A stretch of 36,844 nt of DNA from a virus: the IMG/VR virus record IMGVR_UViG_3300031957_001484, positions 1 to 36,844 of that record. One strand, written 5' to 3'. The number at the start of each line of letters is the position of its first letter. Position 1 is the stretch's first letter. Below the pieces are notes generated by a model that worked only from the letters and a program-made list of their open reading frames with translations, made no database searches and was not told the DNA's origin. This document shows, one piece after another, positions 22,233 to 36,504 of the stretch. Position numbers and translations under genes: made by a program.

Positions 22233-23151
22233 TTCCTAATACTCCTCTTAGAAATCCATCCCAGTGTCCTGCAATAACTTTCCAATTATAAAAATGATTA
22301 AAGAATTTTTGTTGAAACTCTAAATGATTATGACACCCAACCTCATTCAATTGTCCAGGTATTTGATCTATTACAGCTGCAAATTGCATAGCTAAATTTT
22401 TCCAGTTTTTGTCCATAGGTATATAAATTGGAAACTCAGAACAAGTTTCATAAAGTGCTCCGTTGTCCGTTGTTGCTACATACAGTCCACAAGCTAAAGC
22501 TTCAATTGCTGATATACAAGAAGTCTCTTCCCAAATATTAGGATAAACAAATGCATCGTAGGTATGTAAGTTTTCTAAAATATAGTCATTAGGTTTATAT
22601 CCTATGTAATTTACATTAGGTAACTTTTCACATTGATCATATAAGTCTTGATATGAATGATCATTTTTTTCCTTAAATTCATTTCCATAAACCTGTGTAC
22701 TACTATACACATCCAAAGTTATGTTTTTATTATTTACTAACTGCATAGCACCTAATAAGACAGATAGGCCTCTCCAAGGTGTTGGTTGATATATTAATTT
22801 TATTTTTTCTCTTTTAGGTTTAGGATCTCTTTTTTTAATATCAGGAATTCCGTTTTTTATTACCGTACATAAATGCTCAGGTAATGAAAAAGTTTTTCTA
22901 AACTGTTCGTAGTTCCAATGGCTATTAAAAACATAATAATCATATTGTTTTATTTGCTCGGGATCTTTAAAGAACTCTTGAAAATGAGGTTGATCAGGAG
23001 CCATTTTTTGCCAAAGAATATTTATTTTATTTTTTGATAAAGGGACTTTGTGTGGCACTGAAGTGCATATTTGAAACTTGTCTAGTAATTCTTTGGAAAC
23101 ATACTTTTGCAAAAAACCAAGCTGTAGTTCTGTTCCACCTAATGGATTCAT
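22216..23151 (-). CDS. GT-B type (family 4-like) glycosyltransferase
   Basis: 311 residues. NPLGGTELQ at the N-terminus is the glycine loop of GT4 enzymes; KNGIPD (99-104) and the donor-binding EETSCISAIE (Glu209-x7-Glu217) are classical. It is shorter than the usual 350-400 because the acceptor domain is small. It starts at an ATG overlapping the stop of a 57-residue gene as ATGA. Acting with the neighbouring GT-A enzyme it could build a two-sugar decoration on virion protein, host glycan or DNA. Confidence 0.87.
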   Translation of the reverse strand: MNPLGGTELQLGFLQKYVSKELLDKFQICTSVPHKVPLSKNKINILWQKMAPDQPHFQEFFKDPEQIKQYDYYVFNSHWNYEQFRKTFSLPEHLCTVIKNGIPDIKKRDPKPKREKIKLIYQPTPWRGLSVLLGAMQLVNNKNITLDVYSSTQVYGNEFKEKNDHSYQDLYDQCEKLPNVNYIGYKPNDYILENLHTYDAFVYPNIWEETSCISAIEALACGLYVATTDNGALYETCSEFPIYIPMDKNWKNLAMQFAAVIDQIPGQLNEVGCHNHLEFQQKFFNHFYNWKVIAGHWDGFLRGVLGNARSK

Positions 23152-23803: not shown

Positions 23804-23964
23804 GATAAAAAATAAGTAAATGCATCTTGTTTGTTTTTTATATCATTCTCATATGAAAAATTCAACTGAGACTGAAGAGTTCTAAAGGCTTGAAGTATTT
23901 GTCTTTGATCTTCTTGAGAATATTCAGTTTTAGGTTCAGGTATTTGTATTGTTATTTTTGCCAT
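23800..23964 (-). CDS. Small protein (54 aa)
   Basis: From the ATG at 23964, which shares one base with the stop of the large tail gene (TAATG), the frame reads MAKITIQIPEPKTEYSQEDQ and ends ...NKQDAFTYFLS, with the TGA at 23802-23800 overlapping the next ATG. Start and stop both couple to neighbours, which supports a real gene. A beta strand followed by a helix; function unknown, probably structural or chaperone-like. Confidence 0.6.
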   Translation of the reverse strand: MAKITIQIPEPKTEYSQEDQRQILQAFRTLQSQLNFSYENDIKNKQDAFTYFLS

Positions 23965-26144
23965 TATCTTCTACCATCCACTCTAACATCAAATCTAAAC
24001 GTACCGTATCTCCAGCTCTCATCTAAATTTTCATTTTCAATTTGAACAGCAGCTAACCTTGCTCTTGCTCTTGTATCAACTTTAGATGTGCTTGAGTTTA
24101 TTGTAAAAGGTCCTAAAGGACTTGATGTTGAAGTTGTTCCTTGAGGAAACTCATTTAAAAATATAGTTACTTTTGCGTTACCACTTATACGTTTAAAGTC
24201 TGGTAAAAACCTTTTAATACTCATTAAAAATTCTCCATCTCCTGGAACACCTGCATTACCATTTAAATCAAACTCTCCTGATTTTATAAAAGATGTAATT
24301 GCTGTTGAAGATCCATCACCATTTAATTGATTTACACCTACTTCATGTTCATAATAAATAGATGCCCCATTAGAAACACCATTTACTACTGGAAAAGTTG
24401 GTGTGTCTGAAGCATTGTAATCTGTAGCATAAGGTTGTTCGTAAACTGTTGAACCCACCCAAGTTGTTCTATCTAGAGTTCCTGTCGTCCAAACTTGTTC
24501 GTCAAAATTATAAGTTACAACCCTATCAACAACTAAAGAACCAGCAGAAGGGTAAAACCAATTAATTTCTGAGTATAGTTCATTAATACCTCCAAAAACT
24601 AATTGCCCTGAATTATAATTTATACCTGGATTATTACCGTCAGTTGTAAAAACAAAGTCTTCTACTAAACAAGGTAGTGATTTTACAGTACCATCATAAA
24701 CATAGAACCCTCCTGTTTTACCCATCCAATATACCGCACCGTTTGCAAACACACCTGCGTTTTGCCCTAATAGTCCGTTGTTAGAACCGACTTTCCTAAT
24801 TGAAAAAGTAAATGGTGGTCCAACAAATTGCATTTCATATGCAGCTGTGTCGGTAAGAACTAAAATATAATCTTTACCTTTTATGGCTCCTATTATTCTT
24901 GTGCCATCATCAAGTCTAAAAGTACCAGCAGTATTTGTTGAAGTTGGTTGATAATCACTCAAACTTTCTTGATCAGAAAATCTTATAAACATTTTATCTT
25001 GTGTTGTTGAAGTTCCAATTGTAGTTTCTGTACCTAAATGAAATAAATGCCTGTCTCTGTCTGATACTATAGTCATTACTGATGCTGTTGGCATACCTGT
25101 GCCAAGGGTTGCTCTCGTATTTAATGCGTTACCTGCTGAGGGGTTCCAGGTAAATGTTTTTCCATTATGAATTGTTGCTATTAAAATATCACCAAAGTTT
25201 TCTAAAGACCACATTGCAGGATCAATAGTTACTGTGCTTGAAGATGAAGCGTCACCCCATCCTATGTAGCTAGATATATCAGTTACTGTTGCTCCATTTG
25301 TATGTTCAACTGCAGTCGTTCCATTAATACCCCTTGTAATTCCGCTAAGTGTATTTGTACCTGTGTCATTTGCAGTGTAAGACATGTCTTCAGATCCAAT
25401 TCTTATTGAACCCGTTGCTGGGAATGAAGATGTAGCTGTAAGAACTACACTGGTATCGCCTACTAACATGTTACCGCTGTTATTCATTGTTGTTGTACTT
25501 TGCGCAATAGTTCTTCCGCCAAATAAATACGTACCCCAACCATATCCATAAGTTTGATTTAAAGGACCTACGGGTTGGTAAGGATTAACATCTAATGTTC
25601 CGTTGTTCGTTGTTCCTGAACCTGATTCTACTGAAGGCATTAAAATTGTAAATGTTGTAAATGATGGTGTTGTTTGTACTTCGAAAACTTTATCATCAAA
25701 ATCTGACGCTGTGTAACCTGTTTGTCCCGCAGTAAAAGATCCTGCATTAGCGAAGGTAGTCAATTCTCCTACTTCAAGATTGTGTGCAGAGCTTGTAGTA
25801 ATTGTAACTATAGCTGATGCATTAGTCGTTGTTATGTTTGCACCTGTAGAGAAATTATCTGTTTCTAAAGGTGTTATATCGTAAAGAACACCTTCGTAAT
25901 AAATTGTTAAAACTTTATTTGTACCTATCGCTGCATATCTTTTTCCTGAAATATCAGCCCAAACATGTTGTTGTCTTGCAGCACCAACAATTTTGTCACT
26001 ACATAAAGCAGACCAGCCCCCTATTTTTTCTGGTTCACCATATCTAAAACGCACATTGTCACCATCCACCCAACGACCTTCTGCGTCTGCTGGTGTAGAT
26101 TGTTTATCGAACCCTGGTGCTATATTTACTTTTGATAAAGGCAT
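23964..26144 (-). CDS. Large neck/tail structural protein
   Basis: 726 residues. The start MPLSKVNIAPGFDKQSTPAD, followed by DNVRFRYGEPEKIGGW, is characteristic of a large beta-rich protein of short-tailed marine phages, in the role of T7 tail tube B or P22 gp10-type packaged-DNA stabilisation protein. The sequence is dominated by beta-strand patterns with many Thr, Ser, Gly and Asn and few Lys. It begins directly after an extended -10 box (TGGTATAAT), 5 nt before the ATG, with no Shine-Dalgarno. It would head a leftward transcript of virion genes, with the carbamoyltransferase operon ending just upstream. Confidence 0.72.
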   Translation of the reverse strand: MPLSKVNIAPGFDKQSTPADAEGRWVDGDNVRFRYGEPEKIGGWSALCSDKIVGAARQQHVWADISGKRYAAIGTNKVLTIYYEGVLYDITPLETDNFSTGANITTTNASAIVTITTSSAHNLEVGELTTFANAGSFTAGQTGYTASDFDDKVFEVQTTPSFTTFTILMPSVESGSGTTNNGTLDVNPYQPVGPLNQTYGYGWGTYLFGGRTIAQSTTTMNNSGNMLVGDTSVVLTATSSFPATGSIRIGSEDMSYTANDTGTNTLSGITRGINGTTAVEHTNGATVTDISSYIGWGDASSSSTVTIDPAMWSLENFGDILIATIHNGKTFTWNPSAGNALNTRATLGTGMPTASVMTIVSDRDRHLFHLGTETTIGTSTTQDKMFIRFSDQESLSDYQPTSTNTAGTFRLDDGTRIIGAIKGKDYILVLTDTAAYEMQFVGPPFTFSIRKVGSNNGLLGQNAGVFANGAVYWMGKTGGFYVYDGTVKSLPCLVEDFVFTTDGNNPGINYNSGQLVFGGINELYSEINWFYPSAGSLVVDRVVTYNFDEQVWTTGTLDRTTWVGSTVYEQPYATDYNASDTPTFPVVNGVSNGASIYYEHEVGVNQLNGDGSSTAITSFIKSGEFDLNGNAGVPGDGEFLMSIKRFLPDFKRISGNAKVTIFLNEFPQGTTSTSSPLGPFTINSSTSKVDTRARARLAAVQIENENLDESWRYGTFRFDVRVDGRR

Positions 26145-26162: not shown

Positions 26163-26489
26163 CTATTTGGGTAAGAAAGTTGTCCATTCTAAGTGTTTTA
26201 TTAAATCGTTTATATACAATTTCCTCTTCTTTTCTTTACGTATGTGTTGATGTAATTCCTCCAGATCTAAGATAAGCCATTCTTTATCAGCTTCTAAAAC
26301 CATTTTTTGAGCTTTAGTATTGAGCTTTCCATTTTGAGCTGGTGTTCCATCAGATAACTTAAACATATTTCTTACATCAAATCTATAAAAAGCATTTTGT
26401 CCTTTTATCATTCCAGCAATATTCCATGATGTTTTTTCTTTAGGGTATTCTATGTTAGTTAAATGTTTAGCAAATCTTTTAACAATCAT
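26163..26489 (-). CDS. Unknown 108-residue protein closing the carbamoyltransferase operon
   Basis: MIVKRFAKHLTNIEYPKEKT..., with an Ile/Trp-rich core (WLILDLEELHQHIRKEKK) and a Lys-rich end. It overlaps the C-terminal carbamoyltransferase piece by 11 nt, so it is made with that enzyme. I recognise no domain. Its tight coupling suggests an accessory subunit, a substrate or a regulator of the modification enzymes; this is inference. Confidence 0.6.
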   Translation of the reverse strand: MIVKRFAKHLTNIEYPKEKTSWNIAGMIKGQNAFYRFDVRNMFKLSDGTPAQNGKLNTKAQKMVLEADKEWLILDLEELHQHIRKEKKRKLYINDLIKHLEWTTFLPK

Positions 26490-27012
26490 CTGGTTTATAA
26501 ATCATATTAATGTTCATTTGCTTACAAGACCAAATAGCAAAATCTATATCTTCTACAATTGGAAATCCTGCTACATTAAAAGAAGTGTTTAATAACATAG
26601 GAATTTTAGTTTTCTTATAGAAGTTATTAATTAAATCATAGTAATATTTGTTTTGTTTTCTAGTTAATGTTTGCATTCTAGATGTATTATCCACATGAAC
26701 AATGGCAGGAGTTTCTTTTATTGCCTTAGCTTTAGCTGGCAGAGCAAAAGACATATGGGGTGATTCTTTTAAATTACCTAAATTAAAATATTCAGAAACA
26801 TGTTCTAACATAATAGTTCCTGCCAAAGGTCGCCACCACTCTCTTCCTTTTAAAGTGTTAATTATGTTTTGAGCTTTTTTATTTCTAGGGTCAAACAAAA
26901 TAGACCTATTACCTAAAGCTCTTAAACCCATCTCACTTGCACCTTGAAAAATAACAACAGGTTCTTGTTTTAATAAAAGCTCTACAGCTTTGTTTTCATT
27001 ATTTGTAATCAT
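26479..27012 (-). CDS. Carbamoyltransferase, C-terminal domain (split gene)
   Basis: 177 residues matching the C-terminal domain of the NodU/CmcH carbamoyltransferase family: EMGLRALGNRSILFDPR (near residue 25), INTLKGREWWRPLAGTI, IVHVDNTSRMQT and LLNTSFNVAGFPIV. Here Leu replaces the usual Pro of GPRALG. It starts at an ATG that overlaps the end of the N-terminal piece by 14 nt in a different frame. In related enzymes this domain works with the N-terminal domain to move carbamoyl from carbamoyl phosphate, via ATP, to an acceptor hydroxyl. Confidence 0.82.
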   Translation of the reverse strand: MITNNENKAVELLLKQEPVVIFQGASEMGLRALGNRSILFDPRNKKAQNIINTLKGREWWRPLAGTIMLEHVSEYFNLGNLKESPHMSFALPAKAKAIKETPAIVHVDNTSRMQTLTRKQNKYYYDLINNFYKKTKIPMLLNTSFNVAGFPIVEDIDFAIWSCKQMNINMIYKPDDC

Positions 27013-27925
27013 TACAGTATAAAGCTACTCCAATTGCTGTTCCTGCATCATGTGGTACAGGATCTATAAAAAAATTTATGTCTTTGAATTTTTGCACGTA
27101 TTTAAAATTATTGACACAATTCAATGCTACTCCTCCAGTAAGTATTATATTTTTAAGACCTCTGTAATCAACAGCTTGTTTAATTAACTCGCAAGTTCTT
27201 TTAAAATTTTCTTCTTGGATATCTGCAGCTAATTTAACATGATCATAGTTTAAGTTATATTTTTTATTTGTATAATGGTAAGAGGACAGACCCATTAATT
27301 TACCAGCCTCGCCATAAACAAAACCCATCAACTCACTACCTTTGTTAAAAGCAATTCCACCAGGTGAATTAGAACTAAAGAGATATTGAACACCATTAAT
27401 AGTTCTCAAGATTTTGTGATCTGAATAATGAAACACATTATGTTCTACTGGTATGTCAGGCATATTACTGCAGTGTTTAAAATATTCTACATAGCTTTGT
27501 TTGTTAACATACATAATAGTTTCAATTTCTTGAAAAGGCCAAGTAGTTGGTCTTGCACCTCCACCGTCTACAACTATAGCCATAGCTTCTTCAAAAGGTG
27601 AGAAGTGAAATCCTGTAAGTCCGTGATAAAGATGATGTTTCTTTTTGTCATGAAATAATGGACAGTGTTTAAATTTTTTATGAATGTCTTTTGCAAGATC
27701 TGTAGGATTTATTTCTTGAGAATAATCAACAGTATTATATGCCACTAAATCTATTTTTTCATTAATATATTTATTTAGAGTAATAAAATTATTTACTTCA
27801 TTTATAACAGCACGCATATTTTTATGTTTACAAAATCTTTCTTCGTGTAAAAAAGATTTTATAATACCATTTTCTAATAAACATACGGACACATTGTGTG
27901 ATAAATTTACTCCTAGTATTTTCAT
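26999..27925 (-). CDS. Carbamoyltransferase, N-terminal (ASKHA/Kae1-like) domain (split gene)
   Basis: 308 residues matching the N-terminal domain of the same family: MKILGVNLSHNVSVCLL, KKHHLYHGLTGFHFSP (metal His cluster), AIVVDGGG, LTGGVALNCVNN and DPVPHDAGTAIG. The first HDxS-like motif reads HNVS, losing the usual Asp. It stops at TAA 27001-26999 and the C-terminal domain continues in another frame. A two-protein enzyme, a frameshift mutation or a sequencing error are all possible. The start overlaps the previous gene as ATGA. Confidence 0.82.
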   Translation of the reverse strand: MKILGVNLSHNVSVCLLENGIIKSFLHEERFCKHKNMRAVINEVNNFITLNKYINEKIDLVAYNTVDYSQEINPTDLAKDIHKKFKHCPLFHDKKKHHLYHGLTGFHFSPFEEAMAIVVDGGGARPTTWPFQEIETIMYVNKQSYVEYFKHCSNMPDIPVEHNVFHYSDHKILRTINGVQYLFSSNSPGGIAFNKGSELMGFVYGEAGKLMGLSSYHYTNKKYNLNYDHVKLAADIQEENFKRTCELIKQAVDYRGLKNIILTGGVALNCVNNFKYVQKFKDINFFIDPVPHDAGTAIGVALYCNDYK

Positions 27926-29559
27926 TTAATTAAACCTTTCTTAATTTCAGGAAACCATAATATATCAATTTCACTTTTATAAAAACAATCAATTGCTTGT
28001 TTTGGTGTTTCTATTAATGGCTCTCCTGCTAAATTAAAACTTGTATTAAGTAGAGCGGGCACTTTAGTTACTAAATTAAATTCCTTTAACAAATCAAAAA
28101 AATATCCATCATCTTTTGATACAGTTTGTACCCTACAAGAATTGTCTACGTGTACTACACCAGGTATTTTATTATTCTTTACTTGAAAAGATAATGTCAT
28201 AAAAGGTGATTTTTTAAGTTTATGAGTTACAAAATATGAAGTGAAAAAAGATTCTAGAATAGACACTGCAAAAGGACGATACCACTCTCGTTTTTTTACT
28301 TTGTTGATTATTTTTTTAGCATCCTTGTTCCTTGGATCAAATAATATAGATCTATTGCCTAGAGCTCTAGGACCAGCTTCAGCTACACCATTATATACGG
28401 CTACAATTTTTCCGTTACTTAAATGACTAGCAATTTGTTTGGACGATATGTTTTGACCATCTACATTTATTTTGTGCTTAGTATTATTAAAGAATGTATT
28501 TATTAATGGATTTTTTTTATTTTTATAAGTGTTTCTAGTTTCGTTATAATAAATTAAAAGCGCAGCACCAATACTATTTCCTGAGTCATCAGCTAGGGGT
28601 TCAAAGTAAAAATTAACATTAGGTAAATTTTTTACTAAATACTCGTTAGTTACAACATTCAAAGCATATCCTCCAGATAAACAAACATTTTTTATACCTG
28701 TTTTTTTTACGTATCGTTTTATTAATTTAAGGACTTGTTCTTGTGTTTGCTTCTGTACTTGGAATGCGTGATCAGCATAAAATTCATATTGTTTCTCGGT
28801 TAGATTATTTATTTTTTTATGTAGATGTTCTTTTAATATAGTCTGTTGATTATAGTCCTCTTCGTGATGATAGATATTGGAGTTAGGTCTATTGTCAGTA
28901 AACAAAGACACATACTTTTTATCTTTACCATACGCAGATAAACCCATTGTCTTACCATTCTCCAATGCATCTTGACCAATCAATGTAGTAGCTGTCTCAT
29001 ATACTTTAGTAATGTTCATAGAAGAATCAGCATGGGCTTCACAGTCAGGATACGGTTTCATTAACTCTGTTAGATTTTTTTGATTTTGTACATCATTATT
29101 AACACCATTGTTTAAAGTCCAATATGTTTTATAAATCGGTTTAAAAACGCACGGATATTTTGAAGTAAATATAGTTTCACTTTCTCGTAAACCATTTCTT
29201 AAAGAACCATTACGATCAATGATACAAGACAAAGATTCTTTAAACCCACTATTATAAAAAGCTAAAGCTGCGTGACACAAATGATGTTCGTTGCACAAAC
29301 GAATTATTGGAACATTAATTTTTTTAAATACAGTAATCTCAATGTATTTATTATCTTCAGCTTCATGAGTCGGTGAAGAAATAACAACTATATCTATTTT
29401 ACCTTTTGCTTTTTTAAATGCTTGTTCAAGTGCGAGTATTGGATATTTGTCTCTTTTTTTTCTAGATAGTCTTTCTTCTTTACAAAAAAATTCTATTTTA
29501 CCATTATTTATGATTGCGACACTGCTGTCGTGTAGTGTTGATATGCCTAGTATTCTCAT
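27922..29559 (-). CDS. Full-length carbamoyltransferase (NodU/CmcH family)
   Basis: 545 residues, the usual length. N-terminal domain: MRILGISTLHDSSVAII, with HDSS intact, His92/His93 and His96 in EHHLCHAALAF for the metal, SGGYALNVVTN and EPLADDSGNSIGAAL. C-terminal domain: EAGPRALGNRSILFDPR, KREWYRPFAVSIL, GVVHVDNSCRVQT and LLNTSFNLAGEPLIE. Family members carbamoylate hydroxyls of sugars or antibiotics, with carbamoyl phosphate and ATP, through a carbamoyl-adenylate. The ATGA overlap at both ends shows coupled translation with the 2-oxoglutarate oxygenase-like genes upstream and the split copy downstream. It is the active-looking copy. Confidence 0.93.
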   Translation of the reverse strand: MRILGISTLHDSSVAIINNGKIEFFCKEERLSRKKRDKYPILALEQAFKKAKGKIDIVVISSPTHEAEDNKYIEITVFKKINVPIIRLCNEHHLCHAALAFYNSGFKESLSCIIDRNGSLRNGLRESETIFTSKYPCVFKPIYKTYWTLNNGVNNDVQNQKNLTELMKPYPDCEAHADSSMNITKVYETATTLIGQDALENGKTMGLSAYGKDKKYVSLFTDNRPNSNIYHHEEDYNQQTILKEHLHKKINNLTEKQYEFYADHAFQVQKQTQEQVLKLIKRYVKKTGIKNVCLSGGYALNVVTNEYLVKNLPNVNFYFEPLADDSGNSIGAALLIYYNETRNTYKNKKNPLINTFFNNTKHKINVDGQNISSKQIASHLSNGKIVAVYNGVAEAGPRALGNRSILFDPRNKDAKKIINKVKKREWYRPFAVSILESFFTSYFVTHKLKKSPFMTLSFQVKNNKIPGVVHVDNSCRVQTVSKDDGYFFDLLKEFNLVTKVPALLNTSFNLAGEPLIETPKQAIDCFYKSEIDILWFPEIKKGLIK

Positions 29560-30086
29560 TCAAATGTTGTAACAAAAGCAAGTCTTTCTCCAAATCTAGG
29601 GTGATAGTGCCAATGGTGTGAGTTATTAAAACAAACTCCTTTGTATTGTTTGGGTGTGACTTTCTTTAAAATTTTTTTCTCATCTTCATCTAAAATAAAA
29701 AGTTTAGCTTTCTTGTCTTGTACATCATTCAAGTAAACTATTAATTGTTTGTGTGGAAATAAATGGTCTTTGTGAACAGGACATTTAACCATACCATTAT
29801 TGTAAGTCAGGTTTATAGACATTCTGTGAATAAGTTTATACGTAAGATTATTTTTTGATACAAAATCTTGAAGTATACCCTCACCCCACGGATGATATTT
29901 AGAATTCCATTTATCTTCTCCTGATCTAAGAATAGTATGTTCAAAAAAACCGTTGTATCTATCATCTCCTTCAATAATTCTTGTCTTATGATAAAAGGCA
30001 AAATTTAAACCCAAGACTTCTTTATCAATAAAGTCTTTACTTTCTTTACTTAAAAAATCATTATCTTCTTTAAAATCTAACATCAT
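29556..30086 (-). CDS. 2-oxoglutarate/Fe(II) oxygenase-like protein 8
   Basis: 176 residues. The C-terminal half has a jelly-roll pattern with His105-Lys-Asp107 (CPVHKDHLFPHKQLIVYLND) as the first two iron ligands, a His cluster at 157-162 (SHHWHYH) containing the third, and Arg168 (FGERLAFVTTF) as the likely 2-oxoglutarate salt-bridge residue. The N-terminal 90 residues are polar. It is the last of eight in order of transcription and overlaps the full-length carbamoyltransferase by 4 nt. Predicted to hydroxylate a substrate using O2 and 2-oxoglutarate; the substrate is unknown. Confidence 0.72.
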   Translation of the reverse strand: MMLDFKEDNDFLSKESKDFIDKEVLGLNFAFYHKTRIIEGDDRYNGFFEHTILRSGEDKWNSKYHPWGEGILQDFVSKNNLTYKLIHRMSINLTYNNGMVKCPVHKDHLFPHKQLIVYLNDVQDKKAKLFILDEDEKKILKKVTPKQYKGVCFNNSHHWHYHPRFGERLAFVTTFE

Positions 30087-30652
30087 TTAAAATTATATGT
30101 AAAAACAATTCTTTTACAATCCTCTTGTTTATTATAGCACCCGTGAGAAATATGACTACGCCACATAATTAGATTACCTGTTTTAGGTGGATAACTAGCT
30201 ATGGTGTAAGTTAAATCATTAAATGCTCTTTTATTTTCAGGGCCGTCATGATGCGCAGTTTGATCGTTAGGATTCATCATATCTATTACAGGGTTTTCAA
30301 AATTTAAATGTGTATCATGTTCATAACCTTCTAAAAAGAAAACAGCCGAAAAAACAAATCCTGGATGCCTATGAAAAGATTGTCCTCCTCCCAAAGGATA
30401 ATCTAATAACCAAGATTCTTCACAATTAAATTTTTTAGTGTAAAGAAGTCCTTTAGCAAATTTATTAATTTCATTGTGTACCCAATCATTAATTTTCTTG
30501 AATTTTATATTTTTATGAACCCTTTCTCTACAAAAACCTGATTCTTCATAATGATATTTTGATATTAATTTTTTGTATGGCTTTTGAATCTTGTCTACAA
30601 AAGGACATTCAGATACCGCTATTGATGTAGGAAACCACCTATGTATAATCAT
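30083..30652 (-). CDS. 2-oxoglutarate/Fe(II) oxygenase-like protein 7
   Basis: 189 residues. SFHRHPGFVFSAVFFLEG (His94-x-His96) is the HxHP segment of the 2OG-FeII_Oxy_5-type group, where His replaces the usual Asp at the second position. NLIMWRSHISHGCY (His167/His170) supplies the distal His and KRIVFTYNF (Arg181) the 2-oxoglutarate Arg. An extra HHDG motif (134-137) lies between. Overlaps 4 nt with both neighbours. Confidence 0.72.
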   Translation of the reverse strand: MIIHRWFPTSIAVSECPFVDKIQKPYKKLISKYHYEESGFCRERVHKNIKFKKINDWVHNEINKFAKGLLYTKKFNCEESWLLDYPLGGGQSFHRHPGFVFSAVFFLEGYEHDTHLNFENPVIDMMNPNDQTAHHDGPENKRAFNDLTYTIASYPPKTGNLIMWRSHISHGCYNKQEDCKRIVFTYNFK

Positions 30653-31197
30653 TGTTCAAACTCACACCAACCTGTTACGATATACTTTTCCTCAGTTGGA
30701 GAAGGAATACCTCTATGGGTATGTGTAAAATCAGGAGGCCATAATAACGTAAGACCTTTTTTAGCTTTTACTTTTTTGCCATAGTATTTAAATTCTGTTT
30801 CGCCTTTGTCTTTCACTGTATTTAAGTAAGTCATATAAACTAGAGCTCTATTGGCAAAGTACCTGTTGCCTCTTTCACAGTGCCATGAAAAAAAACCACC
30901 TTTAGGTTTGTAGTATTGTATGTTGTTACCTGCAGCAGAAGTCCTTATATTTGGTATTTGATATTTTTTACAATAGGCATCTAAACCCACAGCTAATGCC
31001 TTAAAATATTTTACCATCGTAGGATTTGTTGTATCATTATAAAAAGATACATCGGTTGAGTCTTTTACTTTTAAATCTTCGCCGCCACTGTACACGCCTT
31101 TCTTTTTATACTCTGTATTTTCTTTAAAATATTTTATTATATCATCGCAAAGTTTTAGATCTATATTAAATTTATAAATAAAGTCATCGTGTTTCAT
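30649..31197 (-). CDS. 2-oxoglutarate/Fe(II) oxygenase-like protein 6, HxE variant
   Basis: 182 residues from the ATG at 31197 (GGGAG 7 nt upstream; ATGA overlap with the previous gene). SWHCERGNR (His106-Cys-Glu108) has Glu in the usual Asp position, a variant known in some Fe(II)/2-oxoglutarate enzymes. RALVYMTYLN and GETEF follow as the next strands, then PPDFTHTHRG (His159/His161) as distal ligand. Lys171 (EEKYIVTGW) stands where an Arg is expected. Likely active but with altered metal or substrate handling; substrate unknown. Confidence 0.72.
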   Translation of the reverse strand: MKHDDFIYKFNIDLKLCDDIIKYFKENTEYKKKGVYSGGEDLKVKDSTDVSFYNDTTNPTMVKYFKALAVGLDAYCKKYQIPNIRTSAAGNNIQYYKPKGGFFSWHCERGNRYFANRALVYMTYLNTVKDKGETEFKYYGKKVKAKKGLTLLWPPDFTHTHRGIPSPTEEKYIVTGWCEFEQ

Positions 31198-31751
31198 ATT
31201 AGATCTCCCGTCCATTTAATAGATATTCTAGAAAAGTTTGGTTTGTTAAAAGCTTTTGCATAGTGTGGATCTGATGCTCTCATTTTTATTAAACGCCCGT
31301 GTTTAAAAGGTATTTTTTTCTTGCTTGGTAAATGTATAAACTCACCTCCTATTTTATCAGGAAGATCTTGACTACATAACATTAATATAAAAACAACTTG
31401 ATTATCAGGTCCATCAACATGAGTGCTACCATCCATACCTTTAAATTGTAAGTTACCATCAATAGTGGTTAGGTTTGCATTCATTTTAAAATAATTTAAA
31501 ATATGACCAAAAGCATTTATTAAAGTAAAATTTAATTCTTTATCGTGAGGGTCATATTGAATGTCATAAGCATTATATTTTTTAAAAAATAATTTACCAA
31601 AAAATGTATGACTACCTTTTTCAAAATATGGCCAGCCTTTTCTATTAGCCGTATTATTTGGATACCATGGGGCCTTTACTAATTTATGGGCTATCTCTGT
31701 TGACCATAACAAGTCAAAGACATCATCAACGTATTCTATTTTTTGTAGCAT
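31194..31751 (-). CDS. 2-oxoglutarate/Fe(II) oxygenase-like protein 5
   Basis: 185 residues; the ATG at 31751 has AGGAG 6 nt upstream. His111-Val-Asp113 (GSTHVDGPDN), GGEFIHLP, His163 (SDPHYAKAF) and Arg175 (FSRISIKWTG) give the full HxD...H...R set expected for an active Fe(II)/2-oxoglutarate dioxygenase. The N-terminal 90 residues carry Trp/Tyr/Phe-rich segments that may bind the substrate. Overlaps the upstream gene by 26 nt, the longest overlap in the cluster. Confidence 0.78.
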   Translation of the reverse strand: MLQKIEYVDDVFDLLWSTEIAHKLVKAPWYPNNTANRKGWPYFEKGSHTFFGKLFFKKYNAYDIQYDPHDKELNFTLINAFGHILNYFKMNANLTTIDGNLQFKGMDGSTHVDGPDNQVVFILMLCSQDLPDKIGGEFIHLPSKKKIPFKHGRLIKMRASDPHYAKAFNKPNFSRISIKWTGDLI

Positions 31752-32331
31752 AATAATCTCCTGGTAATCCTAAAAATGGCCTTGTGTCATATAACAAAGG
31801 ATTTTTATCTTTGATGTTGTAATGTAAAAATATTTGTACACACTGTTTACCTTTAAAAGGTTTTCTCCAATGTGTAAATTGTGTGCCGTTGTAAATAAGC
31901 ATATCTCCAGGTTTAAACTTTACCTCGATATCTTTTTTATTATTCTTGTAATAGAAAGACCAAGGATCTCCACCTAAAAACAATGTAGTTGAAATATGAC
32001 AACTTTTTCTATCTGTGTGTTTCTTAAGTTCATTACCTTTTTGATATACTCTAGTATAGGAATAGGTAGGCACTAATTTTAATTTAGTTTTCTTTTCCAT
32101 CATAGGTAATAAATCAACTAACATTCTATCTCCAAGAATATCTCCATACATAGAGAAAGCGTTTTCAACTTGACCATCATTAAGCATTCCCCACTCAACC
32201 GCATCTTTGGGCACATAGCCATCTTCCATTAATCTTAAGGCTACTTTTTCTTTGAGTAAAAAATAATCATAAGTTATTTTAGCTCTCTCTTGTGATATGG
32301 CTTCTTTAATTAGTATTGCATCTTTAAACAT
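31726..32331 (-). CDS. 2-oxoglutarate/Fe(II) oxygenase-like protein 4
   Basis: 201 residues. YTRVYQKGNELKKHTDRKSC contains His105-Thr-Asp107; HISTTLFLGGDPW is the next strand; PGDMLIYNGTQFTHW carries His154 as distal ligand. The Arg expected about 10 residues later is not obvious (Gln163/Gln166 there), so 2-oxoglutarate binding may differ. Otherwise it matches small phage 2OG oxygenases of marine T4-like and short-tailed phages. ATG overlaps the upstream gene by 8 nt. Confidence 0.75.
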   Translation of the reverse strand: MFKDAILIKEAISQERAKITYDYFLLKEKVALRLMEDGYVPKDAVEWGMLNDGQVENAFSMYGDILGDRMLVDLLPMMEKKTKLKLVPTYSYTRVYQKGNELKKHTDRKSCHISTTLFLGGDPWSFYYKNNKKDIEVKFKPGDMLIYNGTQFTHWRKPFKGKQCVQIFLHYNIKDKNPLLYDTRPFLGLPGDYYATKNRIR

Positions 32332-32917
32332 AAGGTTTTCCTAAATGCCAATTTGTTAAACTAAATCTTGTGCCTTTTGTTACGTGTTTAACTCTGTGCC
32401 AAACAAAGGATGGAAAAACCACAAGAGAACCTGCAGATTCCATAAACTTAGGTGATTCAATCTTAAGTTTGTCGTGACCTTGCTCAAAAGAAAACTCTAA
32501 TTTTCCGCCTTCATATTCATCTGCATTATTTAAAACTAACACACTTGATAACTTTCTAATTTTTCCTTTGTATGCCCCTTTAGAATAAGGTTCTGGCCAT
32601 GCATCCATATGCCAATTATAATATTGACCTTTAGAATATTTTGTTAATTGACATTGTTCTGAAGTATCCCATTGAAAATTCCAACCTGCTTGTTTGTTAG
32701 CATCGTTTATAAATGGATGTATTATTCGGTACAAGAAAGGATCTGAACGAAATGCAACATGTGATTTTCTAAATTCAAATAATTCTTTTTTCTTATGTGA
32801 TTTACCGCCAACTGTGCCTAAAGATTTTTTAGATTTATCTAATAAGTTTTTTATTTTTTCACAAACTGAAGGTGCTACTGCGTTTTTATAAACCCAATAA
32901 GACCATTTTAAATTCAT
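32324..32917 (-). CDS. Prolyl-4-hydroxylase-type 2OG oxygenase (PKHD-like)
   Basis: 197 residues from the ATG at 32917 (ATGA overlap; TTGGAG 6 nt upstream). YYNWHMDAWPEP (His103-Met-Asp105), KLSSVLVLN, EGGKLEF, GSLVVFPSFVWHRVKHV (His174) and GTRFSLTNWHLG (Arg184) follow the PiuC/P4Hc layout closely, so this is the best-matched oxygenase of the cluster. Family members hydroxylate prolines or small molecules using Fe(II), O2 and 2-oxoglutarate. The neighbouring Gly/Pro-rich tail fibre is an attractive but untested substrate. Confidence 0.83.
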   Translation of the reverse strand: MNLKWSYWVYKNAVAPSVCEKIKNLLDKSKKSLGTVGGKSHKKKELFEFRKSHVAFRSDPFLYRIIHPFINDANKQAGWNFQWDTSEQCQLTKYSKGQYYNWHMDAWPEPYSKGAYKGKIRKLSSVLVLNNADEYEGGKLEFSFEQGHDKLKIESPKFMESAGSLVVFPSFVWHRVKHVTKGTRFSLTNWHLGKPYV

Positions 32918-33531
32918 TCTATACTCCAATTAAAAGATAAACTTATTCTATCAGAACTTGTTTGATTAGGAGCTGTAGCGTGTTTTAAATGTGAGGGAAA
33001 AAGAATTAATCTTTGAGTTTTAGGAATTGCGTTAAACCTAGCAGAATTAAATGGATTATAAGAGTTTATTGGATACTTAAAAAACATTTTTCTACCACCA
33101 AGTAAATTATCAGGATTTACAAAATAAAGATTACCGCATTTTTCGTCGTTGGATGTTTTTAAATAATATACAGCAGAAAAATCACAATTTGATACTCCTC
33201 CATCGTGTGCGTGTTCTTGGTTATAATGATTTTTTTTATTTATATTAAACCAAAGATTATCAATCTTAATATTAAATTTATCTTTTTCTAAAAAAGAATT
33301 AGCATATTTTTTTAATGCGGGTTCTATATTTGTAATAAATTGATTTATGATAGGAAAGCTACAATCAACATCTTTACTTTGCCATCCACCAATATTACTT
33401 ATTGATCTGCCTTTTTGTTTTTTAATTTTATTACAGTAATTAATTAGTTGATTATTTAGTTTAGTTATTTTTAAATCACCAACATAAATTGGAGTTGCAA
33501 AAATTATTTCTGTTCTATCTAATTTCTTCAT
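32914..33531 (-). CDS. 2OG-FeII_Oxy_5-type oxygenase-like protein
   Basis: 205 residues. NLWFNINKKNHYNQEHAHDG (His107-x-His109), CDFSAVYYLKTSND, GNLYFVNPDN, RLILFPSHLKHATAP (distal His181 or His184) and DRISLSFNWSIE (Arg195) match this group closely. The N-terminus ATPIYVGDLK with Asn/Lys-rich helix is also typical. Its stop overlaps the next start as ATGA; it overlaps the upstream gene by 17 nt. Most likely an active hydroxylase, substrate unknown. Confidence 0.82.
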   Translation of the reverse strand: MKKLDRTEIIFATPIYVGDLKITKLNNQLINYCNKIKKQKGRSISNIGGWQSKDVDCSFPIINQFITNIEPALKKYANSFLEKDKFNIKIDNLWFNINKKNHYNQEHAHDGGVSNCDFSAVYYLKTSNDEKCGNLYFVNPDNLLGGRKMFFKYPINSYNPFNSARFNAIPKTQRLILFPSHLKHATAPNQTSSDRISLSFNWSIE

Positions 33532-34069
33532 AAGTCTGTATTAATAAAGTGTTTATTCTTTCGCTAGTATTTTTAGTTATATAATAATTTAATGAAGAAG
33601 GAAAGCAATAAAAATAATTGTTTTCTAAATTAATAGTCCAAGTTCTATTTCTTCTACGATGGTCATCAAAATCTATAATAAGTTGTGAACTATCTTTTTG
33701 TACATCTACACAATAAATAAAAGTATAATCAGGAGAAAGTTTATCATCATTAATATGATTATGATTTCTTTTTTGACTTTGATTACCTGGTAAAATATGT
33801 AAAGCGTATGTATCTTGAACTACAAGATTAGGACTTTGTAATTTTCTTTTATGTAAATCAAAACTTCGAGCATCATACCACCAATGAGCCAGTTGAGTTA
33901 GAGATCGTATATTAACTATTTTTAATAATTCAGTATTATTATGGTATTTTTTTAAATAATAACTTTCTGCTATATTAAATAGTAATTCTTGCCTATCTAT
34001 TTTAAATAGGTCTGGAGGTCCTACTTCACCTGTATAGAAAATAGTTTCACTAAAAATCTTTCGTATCAT
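33515..34069 (-). CDS. Degenerate 2OG oxygenase-like protein, first of the cluster
   Basis: 184 residues. It aligns by eye with the next gene: HNHIND (His103-x-His105) for the HxH segment, YTFIYCVDVQ, then YFYCFPSSLNYYITKNTSERI against LILFPSHLKHATAPNQTSSDRI. The distal His has become Tyr162 and the flanking His a Ser, so iron binding is likely lost or changed. Arg171 is kept. It may be a non-catalytic partner or a decayed copy. It heads the coupled run, after the fibre-associated gene and a 20-nt gap. Confidence 0.65.
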   Translation of the reverse strand: MIRKIFSETIFYTGEVGPPDLFKIDRQELLFNIAESYYLKKYHNNTELLKIVNIRSLTQLAHWWYDARSFDLHKRKLQSPNLVVQDTYALHILPGNQSQKRNHNHINDDKLSPDYTFIYCVDVQKDSSQLIIDFDDHRRRNRTWTINLENNYFYCFPSSLNYYITKNTSERINTLLIQTYEEIR

Positions 34070-34089: not shown

Positions 34090-34488
34090 TTATGTTCTTT
34101 TAGTCCACTGTTGATTTGTTTCATCCCAATCGTAAGAATCAGGGTGAGTTTGAGCTGTGACTCCATCATCAGCTACGCCTGAAGTATAGGTTTCAGGATA
34201 TGCTACTGGGGCTTCCCATAAGCCAGTAGAAGAATTTAACGTCCAACTTGCATAGGGTTGTAATTTAACAAATTTATCAATGTCTGCATTGTATTTCATA
34301 CCTATGGCAGCATATTGACCTCTTGGGTTAGGGTCTTCATCTCTGTAAGTTTGTTTCCAGCTTTCCCAACCAAATATTTCTTTACATTTTGCTATACCAG
34401 CTTCTTCTGTTGGTGCATCAGAATCCTGAAGAACCGTTGTAGACAAAACTACGTTGTCTGAATCTAATTTTGCAAAATATTTAGCCAT
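34090..34488 (-). CDS. Tail-fibre-associated protein
   Basis: 132 residues, starting MAKYFAKLDSDNVVLSTTVL. Proteins with this start, a QYAAIGMKYNADIDKFV core, a PYASWTLNSSTGLWEAPVAY segment and a C-terminal YDWDETNQQWT are common near tail fibres of marine phages, including cyanophages. The exact role (fibre chaperone or fibre tip) is not settled. It starts at an ATG sharing a base with the previous stop (34488), so it is coupled to the Gly-rich fibre gene. Confidence 0.8.
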   Translation of the reverse strand: MAKYFAKLDSDNVVLSTTVLQDSDAPTEEAGIAKCKEIFGWESWKQTYRDEDPNPRGQYAAIGMKYNADIDKFVKLQPYASWTLNSSTGLWEAPVAYPETYTSGVADDGVTAQTHPDSYDWDETNQQWTKRT

Positions 34489-35393
34489 TATCCTACGTAA
34501 GTTCCTGAAGCGTTAAAAGTGTGAATAGTGTCTGAACCAGAAGTAGTTACTGAGCCTGAGTCTGTTTCAGAATCAGCTGTTAATCTTCTAATAATTACAA
34601 TACCGTTTCCTCCACCTTGTGTTCCTTGAATAGATCCTCCAGCTCCGCCGCCTAAACCATCAGTTCCTTTGTTTCCAGAAGCAGTCCAACCGCCGCCACC
34701 AGATCCGCCACCGCCAGCTCCGCCAGAACCTGATGAAGGGCCGTTTGGTCCCATTTGGGCACCACCGCCACCACCTGCGTAAGTTACTGAGGATCCTGTA
34801 ATGTTAGAAGCAGTTCCTGCTCCACCTGGTCCTCCAGAATTACCGCCTGCAGCGTTAGCTCCTCCGCCACCGCCTCCAGCACCGCCGTTTGGAATTCCTT
34901 GTGATAAAGATCCACCACCTGGATTACCTTGTGATGGTGATACAGGAGGAACGTTTCCAGCTCCGCCTGGTGCAGCTCCTAAAGATTGCCATGGTTGTGC
35001 ACCACCGCCACCTGAGCCACCATCAATACCTTGATTATTATTTGGGCCGTATCCTGGATTAATGTTGTATCCTCCAGCTCCACCGCCTGCTGATGTAATT
35101 GTTGCATCATTACCTTCAAAAGAAGAATTAACTCCGTTTCCAACTCCCGCTGAATCAGCTTGGGGTCCGCCAGTTCCAACAACAACAGCATAGTTTTTAC
35201 CTGTTGTCACTTCAAAAGTTTTAGAAGCTATTGTACGAAAGCCTCCGCCACCGCCGCCTCCGCCGCCGTAACCAGAGTTAGAACCTCCGCCTCCTCCGAC
35301 GATTAAATATTGAACGTTATAAGGTACTCCGCTTCCTCTAGTTTGTCCTAAACCTTTTGATGCTGCTGCTCCAAATGATCCTAATATTGGCAT
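34488..35393 (-). CDS. Glycine-rich tail fibre/adhesin protein
   Basis: 301 residues. After MPILGSFGAAASKGLGQTRG and VQYLIVGGGGGSNSGYG come long Gly runs (nine or more Gly in a row) and beta segments (FEVTTGKNYAVVVGTGG), then a Gly/Ala/Asn/Pro region (residues about 110-265), ending in IVIIRRLTADSETDSGSVTT and IHTFNASGTYVG. This is the glycine-rich domain of phage distal fibres, whose Gly packing forms polyglycine-type helices in related adhesins. SD GGAG lies close to the ATG. Its Gly/Pro content makes it a candidate substrate of the adjacent hydroxylase genes. Confidence 0.85.
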   Translation of the reverse strand: MPILGSFGAAASKGLGQTRGSGVPYNVQYLIVGGGGGSNSGYGGGGGGGGGFRTIASKTFEVTTGKNYAVVVGTGGPQADSAGVGNGVNSSFEGNDATITSAGGGAGGYNINPGYGPNNNQGIDGGSGGGGAQPWQSLGAAPGGAGNVPPVSPSQGNPGGGSLSQGIPNGGAGGGGGGANAAGGNSGGPGGAGTASNITGSSVTYAGGGGGAQMGPNGPSSGSGGAGGGGSGGGGWTASGNKGTDGLGGGAGGSIQGTQGGGNGIVIIRRLTADSETDSGSVTTSGSDTIHTFNASGTYVG

Positions 35394-35412: not shown

Positions 35413-36504
35413 TTAAGCGAATTGAGTCTGAGAAGCTAACGCTGTAAACGTAGCATCACCAGTTTTAATCACTGTGTATGTATAAGCATCTAATGAGCTA
35501 GCATTTCCAGCTGTTGGCGCTGCTCCACCTTGCCATTCAGGAGTTACGGAAGATCCATCGATTTGAAAAGCATTATTGTAATATGGTGTAGAACCTTGTT
35601 TTACAATAAATGCTACAGTAATAGATTCACCTGTATCCATAATAGAGTTTAATGAATTAGATCCATCTCCTCTTAAGTTTACTGTGAAGTTTGCTGCTGC
35701 ATCAGTTGTGTAATTTAAAACTGCTTGTGTAAGAACATCATAGTTAATTGTTCCAGTAGCTGCTGTTGCAGATGTTGTAACTTTTTCTGCAACACTTTGA
35801 ATTTTACCTTGACCGTTAAAAGTTGTTCTACCAATACCTTTTGGTGTTAAATTTAAATCAACATTACTGTCTCCACCTGTAGCTTGAATATTAGGAGCAT
35901 TTCCTGTTGCTGCGTTTACTACAGTTAATTCGTTTACTGCGGAAGCAGTTGTAGTAAATTTAATTTGTTCTAAACCATTTTCATCACCGATGAAATTACC
36001 ATTATCAATTAAAATATTATTTCCGTTAGCATCTAAATTACCACCTAATTGAGGTGTAGTGTCATCTACTACAGCATCAATACCTACTGATGAGAATCCT
36101 GAATCTACAATATTAGTACCATCAGAAATTAAAATTCTAGTTTCTTTTTCTGTAGCACCAAAAGTGTATCCTGTTCCACTTACTGTTTTAAATTCTACAG
36201 TGTATGCACCCGATGTGCCATTTATAATAATGTAAGATTTTTCAATTGAATTTGGAATTGTTACTGTTTGATTTCCTGTAATTGTCCCAGTAAATTTTAT
36301 TACTTGGTTTCTTGCCTGTGAGATTGTTGCATCTGTCATTGCAAGAGCAGTAGTTTGTACACCCCCTGCAATTGAAATAGCTTCATAACCTGCTACGGCT
36401 TGTTGAATTAAGTTTAAATTAGAATTTGTTTTATCTCCCCATGTACCAGCGTTTTCGCCAGTTGCCATAAGTTCTAAACCGAGATCTGAAAATGTTGATG
36501 CCAT
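35413..36504 (-). CDS. Tail fibre protein
   Basis: 363 residues. The start MASTFSDLGLELMATGENAG, followed by TWGDKTNSNLNLIQ, is a recognisable start of fibre proteins of marine phages. The body is beta-rich with Thr, Asn, Gly and Ser (TGTITGNQTVTIPNSIEKSYIII) and repeated short strands. No enzymatic motif. AAAGGT lies just before the ATG. Likely a receptor-binding fibre or its shaft; the downstream Gly-rich gene could be its tip. Confidence 0.83.
   Translation of the reverse strand: MASTFSDLGLELMATGENAGTWGDKTNSNLNLIQQAVAGYEAISIAGGVQTTALAMTDATISQARNQVIKFTGTITGNQTVTIPNSIEKSYIIINGTSGAYTVEFKTVSGTGYTFGATEKETRILISDGTNIVDSGFSSVGIDAVVDDTTPQLGGNLDANGNNILIDNGNFIGDENGLEQIKFTTTASAVNELTVVNAATGNAPNIQATGGDSNVDLNLTPKGIGRTTFNGQGKIQSVAEKVTTSATAATGTINYDVLTQAVLNYTTDAAANFTVNLRGDGSNSLNSIMDTGESITVAFIVKQGSTPYYNNAFQIDGSSVTPEWQGGAAPTAGNASSLDAYTYTVIKTGDATFTALASQTQFA

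Follow-up and report, generated by a model that had tools for sequence, protein, structure and literature searches.

Genes for 2-oxoglutarate (2OG) oxygenases are widespread in marine phages as 'auxiliary metabolic genes' (AMGs), and so far they have been read in terms of host metabolism, DNA repair, nitrogen sensing, or heme and iron supply. For HTVC023P-type pelagiphages, PMC9599517 reports eight non-orthologous 2OG genes and a co-located 'ferrochelatase' as 'partner AMGs' (papers cited by such numbers are represented here by the available parts of their texts). The 2OG genes of that account lie nearby 'although not adjacent', their role is sought in iron and heme, and the term 'carbamoyl' is absent from its main text. 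In the jumbo cyanophage S-SSM6a, a carbamoyltransferase, a halogenase and a 2OG enzyme are clustered and are read as serving capsule decoration or a secondary metabolite (PMC7824862, section 3.4.10). A 5-hydroxymethylcytosine carbamoyltransferase of phages works with a thymidylate synthase homologue (PMC8670742), and a host-recognition cluster has been described in pelagimyophages (PMC7029224). Here we analyze IMG/VR virus record IMGVR_UViG_3300031957_001484, whose 36,844 bases (the window; the completeness of the record is not established) contain twelve minus-strand genes at 26163-34069, eight of them of the double-stranded β-helix (DSBH) type. As the best reading, though a tentative one, we put forward that this block is a cassette for hydroxylating a virion adhesin and, in some cases, decorating it further.

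The window virus is a small ocean virus and is kin of viruses infecting SAR11 bacteria. Its gp10 is 49-54% identical to gp10 of HTVC023P and HTVC027P; judged by this homology and by the common order and neighbors of the tail genes, it belongs with the HTVC023P-type pelagiphages. The block lies between the fiber genes f363-gly-f132 (36504-34090) and gp10 (26144-23964). Besides the eight DSBH-type genes it contains two NodU-type carbamoyltransferases, one full and the other split, and a protein of 108 residues. In contrast to the picture given in PMC9599517 for the same lineage, the oxygenase genes form an adjacent array within the tail-fiber module, the 'ferrochelatase' is relabeled, and the array is associated with fiber type. 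The cluster of S-SSM6a contains the same kinds of enzymes, but the present lineage has genomes of roughly 60 kb and most of its relatives carry oxygenases only.

An earlier note, made from the sequence alone, had described twelve coupled genes with overlaps of 4-26 nucleotides in an AT-rich block, and these descriptions agree with our measurements. Twelve open reading frames are found on the minus strand at the places stated, and all 11 junctions overlap (17, 16, 8, 26, 22, 4, 4, 4, 4, 14 and 11 nucleotides). Because the start of ox3 was called at a TTG and an ATG is present four codons downstream, some overlaps may in truth be 4 nucleotides. The G+C content of the block is 0.293, against 0.348 in the remaining window, and only one of 145 sliding windows of the same size is lower. 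Scans for promoters and terminators gave signal no better than chance, and a repeat search returned the homology of the two carbamoyltransferases to each other plus short matches of low identity. The eight genes of the array are as follows.

ox1: 33515 to 34069, minus strand; 184 residues, DSBH-like without a conserved iron site; phrog_81 at E 1.1e-5, hhalign to ox2 94.6%.
ox2: 32914 to 33531, minus strand; 205 residues, 2OG-FeII_Oxy_5-type with HxH..H and Arg; Pfam 1.1e-17, phrog_81.
ox3: 32324 to 32929, minus strand; 201 residues, prolyl-4-hydroxylase (P4H)-like 2OG oxygenase with HxD..H and Arg; Pfam 4.9e-16, phrog_61, TTG start.
ox4: 31726 to 32331, minus strand; 201 residues, core member of the array with a predicted prolyl-hydroxylase-like fold; phrog_2954.
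ox5: 31194 to 31751, minus strand; 185 residues, divergent DSBH protein with HxD..H and Arg; phrog_274 at 6.4e-14, weak in hhalign.
ox6: 30649 to 31215, minus strand; 188 residues, P4H-like with HxE..H and Lys, core partner of ox4; Pfam 6.2e-9, hhalign to ox3 100%.
ox7: 30083 to 30652, minus strand; 189 residues, 2OG-FeII_Oxy_5-type with HxH..H and Arg; Pfam 9.5e-11, hhalign to ox2 99.9%.
ox8: 29556 to 30086, minus strand; 176 residues, divergent DSBH protein with HxD..H and Arg; phrog_274 at 3.7e-20, hhalign to ox3 94.9%.

For the comparison with relatives, 64 loci were collected by searching for carbamoyltransferases, and searching with gp10 supplied the 80 best among at least 598 loci. The fairer set consists of 35 loci picked by gp10 alone with at least 8 kb upstream in view, not dereplicated. 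Within those 8 kb, oxygenases are present in 33 of the 35 loci; 32 have two or more and eight have five or more. In 57 loci with both f363 and gp10 in view, at least one oxygenase lies between the two in 56 and at least two in 54; once the left anchor is shifted in two records (L149 and L151, where the counts rise from 1 and 0 to 4 and 4), these values become 57 and 56. The ox4 family is present in 48 of the 57 loci and an adjacent ox6-ox4 pair in 36. As relatives carry up to ten oxygenases in one row, the multi-oxygenase arrangement is not a chance product. A carbamoyltransferase occurs within 9 kb upstream of gp10 in only 2 of the 35 gp10-chosen loci, and is therefore an optional addition; its counts in the 57-locus set are inflated because many loci of fiber type A (defined below) came via the carbamoyltransferase search. 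Across the phages compared here, the array is the norm and a carbamoyltransferase exceptional. The core is the oxygenase array, chiefly the ox6-ox4 pair, and carbamoyltransferases, halogenases and sulfotransferases are optional. Conservation of the neighborhood, which the earlier note had anticipated, is accordingly found for two or more oxygenases beside fiber genes (32/35) and not for their coupling to carbamoyltransferases (2/35), so that 'hydroxylate, then carbamoylate' is not supported as a general scheme.

The cut-offs of the Pfam 2OG-Fe(II) oxygenase families are passed by ox2, ox3, ox6 and ox7. The link of ox1, ox4, ox5 and ox8 to the superfamily comes only from PHROG profiles and hhalign, where ox4 and ox3 match at 67.5% one way and 22.8% the other; ox5 is weakest, in every comparison, and its family comprises three loci including the window, all near-identical relatives. 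Together with the ox4 model and its Foldseek matches, these comparisons uphold a DSBH identity for most of the eight genes. The HxD..H columns are kept in 80 of 80 members of the ox3 family, 83-84 of 85 for ox4, 2 of 2 for ox5 and 8 of 8 for ox8, and both His residues of the ox6 HxE/D..H motif in 26 of 26. HxH..H replaces HxD/E..H in ox2 (48/48) and ox7 (7/7). The ox1 family differs: its first-motif columns lack conservation, Tyr takes the place of the distal His in 20 of 20 members, and the C-terminal Arg is unconserved as well. Since iron ligands are lost across the whole family, ox1 appears to be a conserved pseudo-oxygenase. From these residue patterns, seven of the eight genes (ox2-ox8) look active, and Fe/2OG-dependent activity is predicted for them; the iron site that had been ascribed to all eight is retained in seven and missing from ox1. 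The C-terminal Arg had been expected likewise throughout; it holds for ox2 (45/48), ox3 (80/80), ox5 (2/2), ox7 (6/7) and ox8 (8/8), is Lys or Arg in ox6, and fails in ox1 and in ox4, which has Gln at this position in 82 of 85 members.

The PHROG label of phrog_274, 'DNA endonuclease V', looks wrong for ox5 and ox8. An identity with the T4 enzyme was rejected, as it rests on that label only and ox8 aligns to ox3 (see list); ox5 and ox8 match no Pfam family at E<=1, hence no Pfam endonuclease V model.

ox4 is labeled 'ferrochelatase' in PHROGs (phrog_2954) and in many cyanophage and pelagiphage records. Its predicted structure has a mean pLDDT (predicted local distance difference test) of 92.9, and His105, Asp107 and His154 are invariant in 50 members. 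Foldseek returns 611 PDB matches to the model at E<=0.001. The 50 listed are by title 2OG, AlkB, PHD-type or putative oxygenases, except for 3bvc, which is uncharacterized, and PolD, whose title mentions iron and succinate alone. High-ranking matches include the Pseudomonas prolyl-4-hydroxylase, PHD-type enzymes (PHD2), ALKBH7 and PiuC, and VIA aligns the model to P4H 4j25 with Z = 16.0 and a root-mean-square deviation of 2.5 over 156 residues. ox4 has the fold and iron triad of the Pseudomonas enzyme (PDB 4j25, 4iw3) and of PHD2 in common, but identity is about 10-13% and Gln replaces the usual C-terminal Arg. No Pfam ferrochelatase match is found at E<=0.01 in the 50 members, and no ferrochelatase stands among the Foldseek and VIA matches listed. 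With an oxygenase fold predicted, a ferrochelatase identity was rejected: the prediction for ox4 is a 2OG oxygenase resembling prolyl hydroxylases, and the label appears to be a misannotation.

Relatives of ox4 are found on 49 bacterial genome contigs, of which 17 are phage or phage-like and 32 chromosomal, as judged by eye from gene content. In a Brevundimonas contig (L211, 4457-9947), a cluster of lasso type encloses ox4 in the order HprK-like, PqqD, Asn-synthase, ox4 and transglutaminase. In a Xanthomonas contig (L205, 6641-10816), a cluster of graspetide type contains a 2OG oxygenase, DUF6817, ox4, an MvdD-type ATP-grasp protein and a C39-2OG fusion. An oxygenase of the ox6 kind is also present in both. 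Lasso markers lie 1.6-8 kb from ox4 in four more chromosomal loci (L184, L199, L201 and L203), and DUF6817 recurs in eight viral loci, six of which are near-copies of one array. In both kinds of cluster, 2OG enzymes are described that hydroxylate a ribosomal peptide, CanE in the lasso class (PMC9266682) and CorC in the graspetide class (PMC13097080). The likeness drawn here between ox4 and these hydroxylases is one of cluster context. Queries for the lasso and graspetide core (ATP-grasp, Asn-synthase, PqqD, transglutaminase and HprK) gave no matches in the window or in the viral loci L005-L164; they did not extend to precursors, exporters or further classes of peptide. Because some cellular kin of ox4 stand in or near such clusters and because CanE and CorC act on ribosomal peptides, the analogy points to a polypeptide as the substrate of the array. 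The polypeptides seen to go with the array are the fiber proteins, other genes lying outside this comparison. The fiber genes and the downstream anchor of the window are these.

f363: 35413 to 36504, minus strand; conserved tail protein and upstream anchor of the locus; its HTVC027P homologue is annotated 'putative tail protein'.
gly: 34488 to 35393, minus strand; tail protein rich in glycine, a candidate for both adhesin and substrate; Gly_rich_2 at 6.5e-14.
f132: 34090 to 34488, minus strand; gene of the tail-fiber module and marker of fiber type A; phrog_7759, occurring among tail genes of other phages.
gp10: 23964 to 26144, minus strand; virion structural protein and downstream anchor; phrog_3287 at 1.4e-84, some homologues annotated 'phage stabilization protein'.

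Three fiber types were distinguished: type A has gly and f132, type B has U0/U1, and type C has the collar-domain protein U3 plus U4. Type A loci (n = 16) contain 4-10 oxygenases, with ox1 in 13; type B loci (n = 32) contain 1-4, once 7, and type C loci (n = 8) 3-4, with ox1 in none of either. In type C, at least one oxygenase is on the opposite strand in all eight loci, and all of them are in six. Within the gp10-chosen set the median number of oxygenases is 5 for type A and 3 for type B (n = 13 each, p 0.006, uncorrected for descent), the A loci coming from three gp10 queries and the B loci from one. A gp10 tree was built from 53 of the 57 loci, four short ones being left out, and on it type A requires six changes, type B nine and type C six. 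Fiber types change repeatedly on the tree, so fibers have often been swapped, which supports the earlier suggestion of transfer as a cassette. Six independent pairs were compared: on average 4.8 of them join type A to an array of at least five, and none shows the opposite (median p 0.0625); the corresponding p is 0.031 for the presence of ox1 and 0.0625 for minus strand with type C. These results are suggestive of array size and strand going with fiber type, an association that is borderline after correction for the tree.

A prediction was written before the results of a replication were seen. It covered 159 new loci, 94 of them without a fiber marker or gp10, and one of its scans returned the best 80 of at least 597 loci. 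All 21 new type A loci have oxygenases, 15 of them at least four; type A alone was covered, no type B or C locus being among the new loci. The forecast that these would be 'mostly with ox1' failed, as ox1 is present in 9 of the 21. A further 44 'other' loci, many incomplete, have 0-4 oxygenases, with none in 12. In 10 of 12 new f132 loci, gly is directly upstream of f132. As a separate observation, the U1 family (about 248 residues, no Pfam match) occurs both in type B pelagiphage loci and in cyanomyovirus runs beside a halogenase (L158 at 7803, L164 at 9925), and is a possible further enzyme.

The gene set also recurs near fiber genes in T4-like cyanophages and pelagimyophages. In S-CAM8, a set of gly, CT1 (the full-length carbamoyltransferase), ox6, ox4 and f132, together with four further oxygenases, lies 3.5 kb from an annotated fiber gene, and P-RSM4 and S-MS29 have an arrangement like it near fiber genes. 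HTVC008M, Mosig, S-RIM44 and Sf-FR1 contain related oxygenase runs between fiber or tail genes and neck genes; the runs of S-RIM44 and Sf-FR1 include tryptophan halogenases. In 10 of 12 annotated phage records examined, ox4 is in an oxygenase run near fiber genes. In S-RIM32 it is loose, with the array 2-6 kb away, and ACG-2014f is the exception, with a longer ox4-type gene away from the fibers.

The remaining genes of the block are two carbamoyltransferases and the 108-residue protein.

CT1: 27922 to 29559, minus strand; 545 residues, full-length NodU/CmcH-type O-carbamoyltransferase; Carbam_trans_C at 2.7e-56, Carbam_trans_N at 1.7e-28.
CT2N: 26999 to 27925, minus strand; 308 residues, N-terminal half of the split carbamoyltransferase; Carbam_trans_N at 8.3e-11, phrog_1601.
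CT2C: 26479 to 27012, minus strand; 177 residues, C-terminal half of the split carbamoyltransferase; Carbam_trans_C at 1.4e-51.
p108: 26163 to 26489, minus strand; 108 residues, predicted PD-(D/E)xK-like fold, model pLDDT 88; RecU and I-Ssp6803I matches.

The Carbam_trans N and C models match CT1, and match CT2 over two frames, which bears out the earlier description of one full-length and one split enzyme. Relatives of CT1 with solved structures are TobZ, the decarbamoylnovobiocin enzyme and GdmN. The NCBIfam NodU equivalog scores 134.8 bits, far under its cut-off of 1000, so CT1 is a member of the superfamily and not NodU itself. A tree was built from 59 of 80 carbamoyltransferase units, after removal of identical rows and of 15 near-copies contributed by 14 loci. 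In it, 12 of 13 split rows share one clade; the split of CT2 is therefore old, and on the same ground a frameshift artefact was rejected. The clade that holds CT2 also includes four copies linked to ThyX, and of 74 distinct carbamoyltransferase units, four have ThyX at a distance of 8 kb or less. In those four (L163, L055, L057 and L051), the split carbamoyltransferase is less than 8 kb from ThyX, in C-then-N order in three; they form a candidate group acting on nucleotides or DNA. Phage carbamoyltransferases appear to be read as those of pyrimidine biosynthesis, another family than NodU/CmcH, in the available text of PMC9146016 and PMC10436341.

The best Foldseek match of the p108 model is weak (E 0.015); Asp38 and Lys62 are invariant, position 60 is nearly invariantly Ala, and a conserved catalytic acid is absent from the predicted fold. 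The predicted fold could relate p108 to mobility of the cassette. A dedicated partnership with the carbamoyltransferases was rejected, as p108 is present with no carbamoyltransferase in view in L070, L071, L250 and L310.

Two more enzyme kinds occur in some of the loci: tryptophan halogenases have 12 matches in 12 viral loci and sulfotransferases 12 matches in 11, and both fit a stepwise decoration. Halogenase-like genes beside oxygenase or carbamoyltransferase genes were noted in L008, L009, L010, L015, L016, L018, L019, L031, L037, L058, L154, L158, L165 and L179, and sulfotransferase-like genes in L022, L023, L026, L028, L029, L030, L036, L038, L068, L092, L126 and L167; several sit within arrays.

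In the mechanism we propose, the twelve genes would act as a tail-fiber maturation cassette, expressed with the virion genes. (The available text of PMC12753301 on HTVC027P expression timing does not name gp72-gp74.) Hydroxylases of the prolyl-hydroxylase type, dependent on Fe(II) and 2-oxoglutarate, would act on side chains of a phage-made polypeptide, the likeliest target being the variable adhesin encoded next door (gly/f363 in the window phage). The ox6-ox4 pair would perform the basic hydroxylation, and extra oxygenases would be added for particular fiber types such as type A, with the ligand-less ox1 serving as a non-catalytic partner or a holder of substrate. Optional transferases would finish the product in some phages; in the window phage, the carbamoyltransferases would attach carbamoyl groups to the hydroxyls just formed, or to sugars that two nearby glycosyltransferases had put in place. 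The outcome would be an adhesin of altered chemistry, tuned to the host surface or protected from it. Inference covers when the genes are expressed, the choice of the fiber as substrate, which residues are altered, what ox1 does and in which sequence the reactions follow.

Several observations weigh against this proposal. Oxygenases are absent from two of the 35 gp10-chosen loci, both more distant relatives. Of 35 records bearing f132, 19 were examined (12 of these with 6 kb flanks, Greip on one side only); at least two oxygenases are near in seven and one in one, and 11 have none in the stretch seen, so that gly/f132 fibers also exist without an array. The borderline association with fiber type falls to four pairs when four long-branch rows are removed, all in the expected direction (p 0.125), and carbamoyltransferases have no clear link with fiber type (2.8 with and 1.1 against, of six). 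As fiber genes and array are physically linked, joint transfer without function may account for the association. Among the chromosomal ox4 loci, 26 of 32 are without a peptide-marker match, the background rate of such markers being unmeasured, and two near-identical contigs of these 26 adjoin genes of the nonribosomal peptide synthetase type. Finally, the VIA list for ox4 is headed by SnoN, a 2OG-dependent natural-product epimerase (Z = 16.6), tied with P4H.

The main rival overall is remodeling of the host surface, in which oxygenases, glycosyltransferases and carbamoyltransferases would alter lipopolysaccharide or capsule sugars, hide the receptor from competitors and free the progeny. It would also be compatible with the fiber link, fiber type and enzyme set alike being matched to a single receptor. 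Among the solved relatives of CT1, TobZ and the decarbamoylnovobiocin enzyme act on antibiotic sugars; GdmN does not. CT1 relatives also lie near nucleotide-sugar or heptose genes in S-SCSM2R and P-SSM2, and glycosyltransferases are found downstream of gp10 in relatives and in the window, where the pair is as follows.

GTa: 21411 to 22232, minus strand; glycosyltransferase gene with a weak Anp1 match (0.0022).
GTb: 22216 to 23151, minus strand; glycosyltransferase gene, Glycos_transf_1 at 2.4e-13.

This region (21411 to 23151) is a second hotspot in relatives; between gp10 and the glycosyltransferase pair, oxygenases occur in L075, L085 and L102, and split carbamoyltransferases in L075, L076 and L102. 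Capsule decoration is one option given in the available text of PMC7824862 for the cyanophage cluster of carbamoyltransferase, halogenase and 2OG genes. Host-glycan modification is the best reading for carbamoyltransferases near sugar genes. For the array it is at odds with a core that consists of the oxygenase pair rather than the transferases, with the resemblance of ox4 to protein hydroxylases, and with the lasso and graspetide surroundings of some cellular ox4 kin; on balance we consider host-surface remodeling rather unlikely, if a serious contender.

Alternatively, the array could make or tailor a small molecule or short ribosomal peptide directed against competitors or the host. The combination of halogenase, sulfotransferase, carbamoyltransferase and 2OG enzymes recalls natural-product clusters, a secondary metabolite is the other option in PMC7824862, and the lasso and graspetide context of some cellular ox4 kin would suit it as well. 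However, the core queries found nothing in L005-L164 and the window, within the limits given above, and the position of the array in the tail module is stable. Such a product is improbable.

Hypermodification of DNA, with oxygenases hydroxylating bases and carbamoyltransferases capping them, has a model in the carbamoylation of 5-hydroxymethylcytosine: a phage enzyme of the same superfamily as CT1 and CT2 yields 5-carbamoyloxymethylcytosine (PMC8670742). Since the clade of CT2 includes ThyX-linked copies, CT2 could act on nucleotides. Against this, the enzyme of PMC8670742 works with a thymidylate synthase homologue, and neither ThyX nor ThyA is found among the proteins of the window (again, a record of unestablished completeness); ThyX is near only the 4 of 74 units mentioned, around which ThyA was not searched, and the array goes with fiber genes. 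Carbamoyltransferases of unmodified contigs adjoin unrelated genes, for example group-1 glycosyltransferases (PMC8670742), and the window has these too. The discriminating residues W408, G421 and R423 of that paper were left unused, as its available text does not assign letters to modifications. As a target of the array, DNA, one of those first considered, finds no support in the window and is unlikely; for the split carbamoyltransferase it is a less unlikely target, and as an account of the whole we hold it to be more improbable still than the small molecule. A metabolic role has been put forward in PMC3037559 and PMC12753301 and echoed by the pairing with 'ferrochelatase' in PMC9599517; the oxygenases would draw on 2-oxoglutarate or iron and so influence the nitrogen or iron status of the host, or they would take part in DNA repair. 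It is very improbable, as a 2OG oxygenase is also the prediction for that 'ferrochelatase', and mere consumption of 2OG would hardly call for so many different conserved enzymes that track fiber type.

In the literature searched, where subscription journals are thinly covered, no published proposal that oxygenases modify phage fibers was noticed. As far as that search reaches, it is new that the array is a feature of the fiber module, that it tracks fiber type, that it contains a pseudo-oxygenase and a mislabeled hydroxylase, and that some cellular kin belong to, or lie close to, gene clusters for peptide modification. Known kinds of parts make up the array, and the arrangement and the proposed target are new. 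A broader idea, possible though somewhat doubtful, is that the adhesins of marine phages mature in the manner of ribosomal natural products: fiber-specific hydroxylases, with or without a halogenase, sulfotransferase or carbamoyltransferase, would turn encoded side chains of the fiber into non-standard chemical groups. Modification and fiber sequence would together set host range, and the fiber and its enzyme set would move together between podovirus-type and T4-like phages. If the adhesin is indeed modified, a large class of marine phage genes would shift from host metabolism to host recognition, the published 'ferrochelatase' partner would disappear, and host range would not be predictable from fiber sequence alone.

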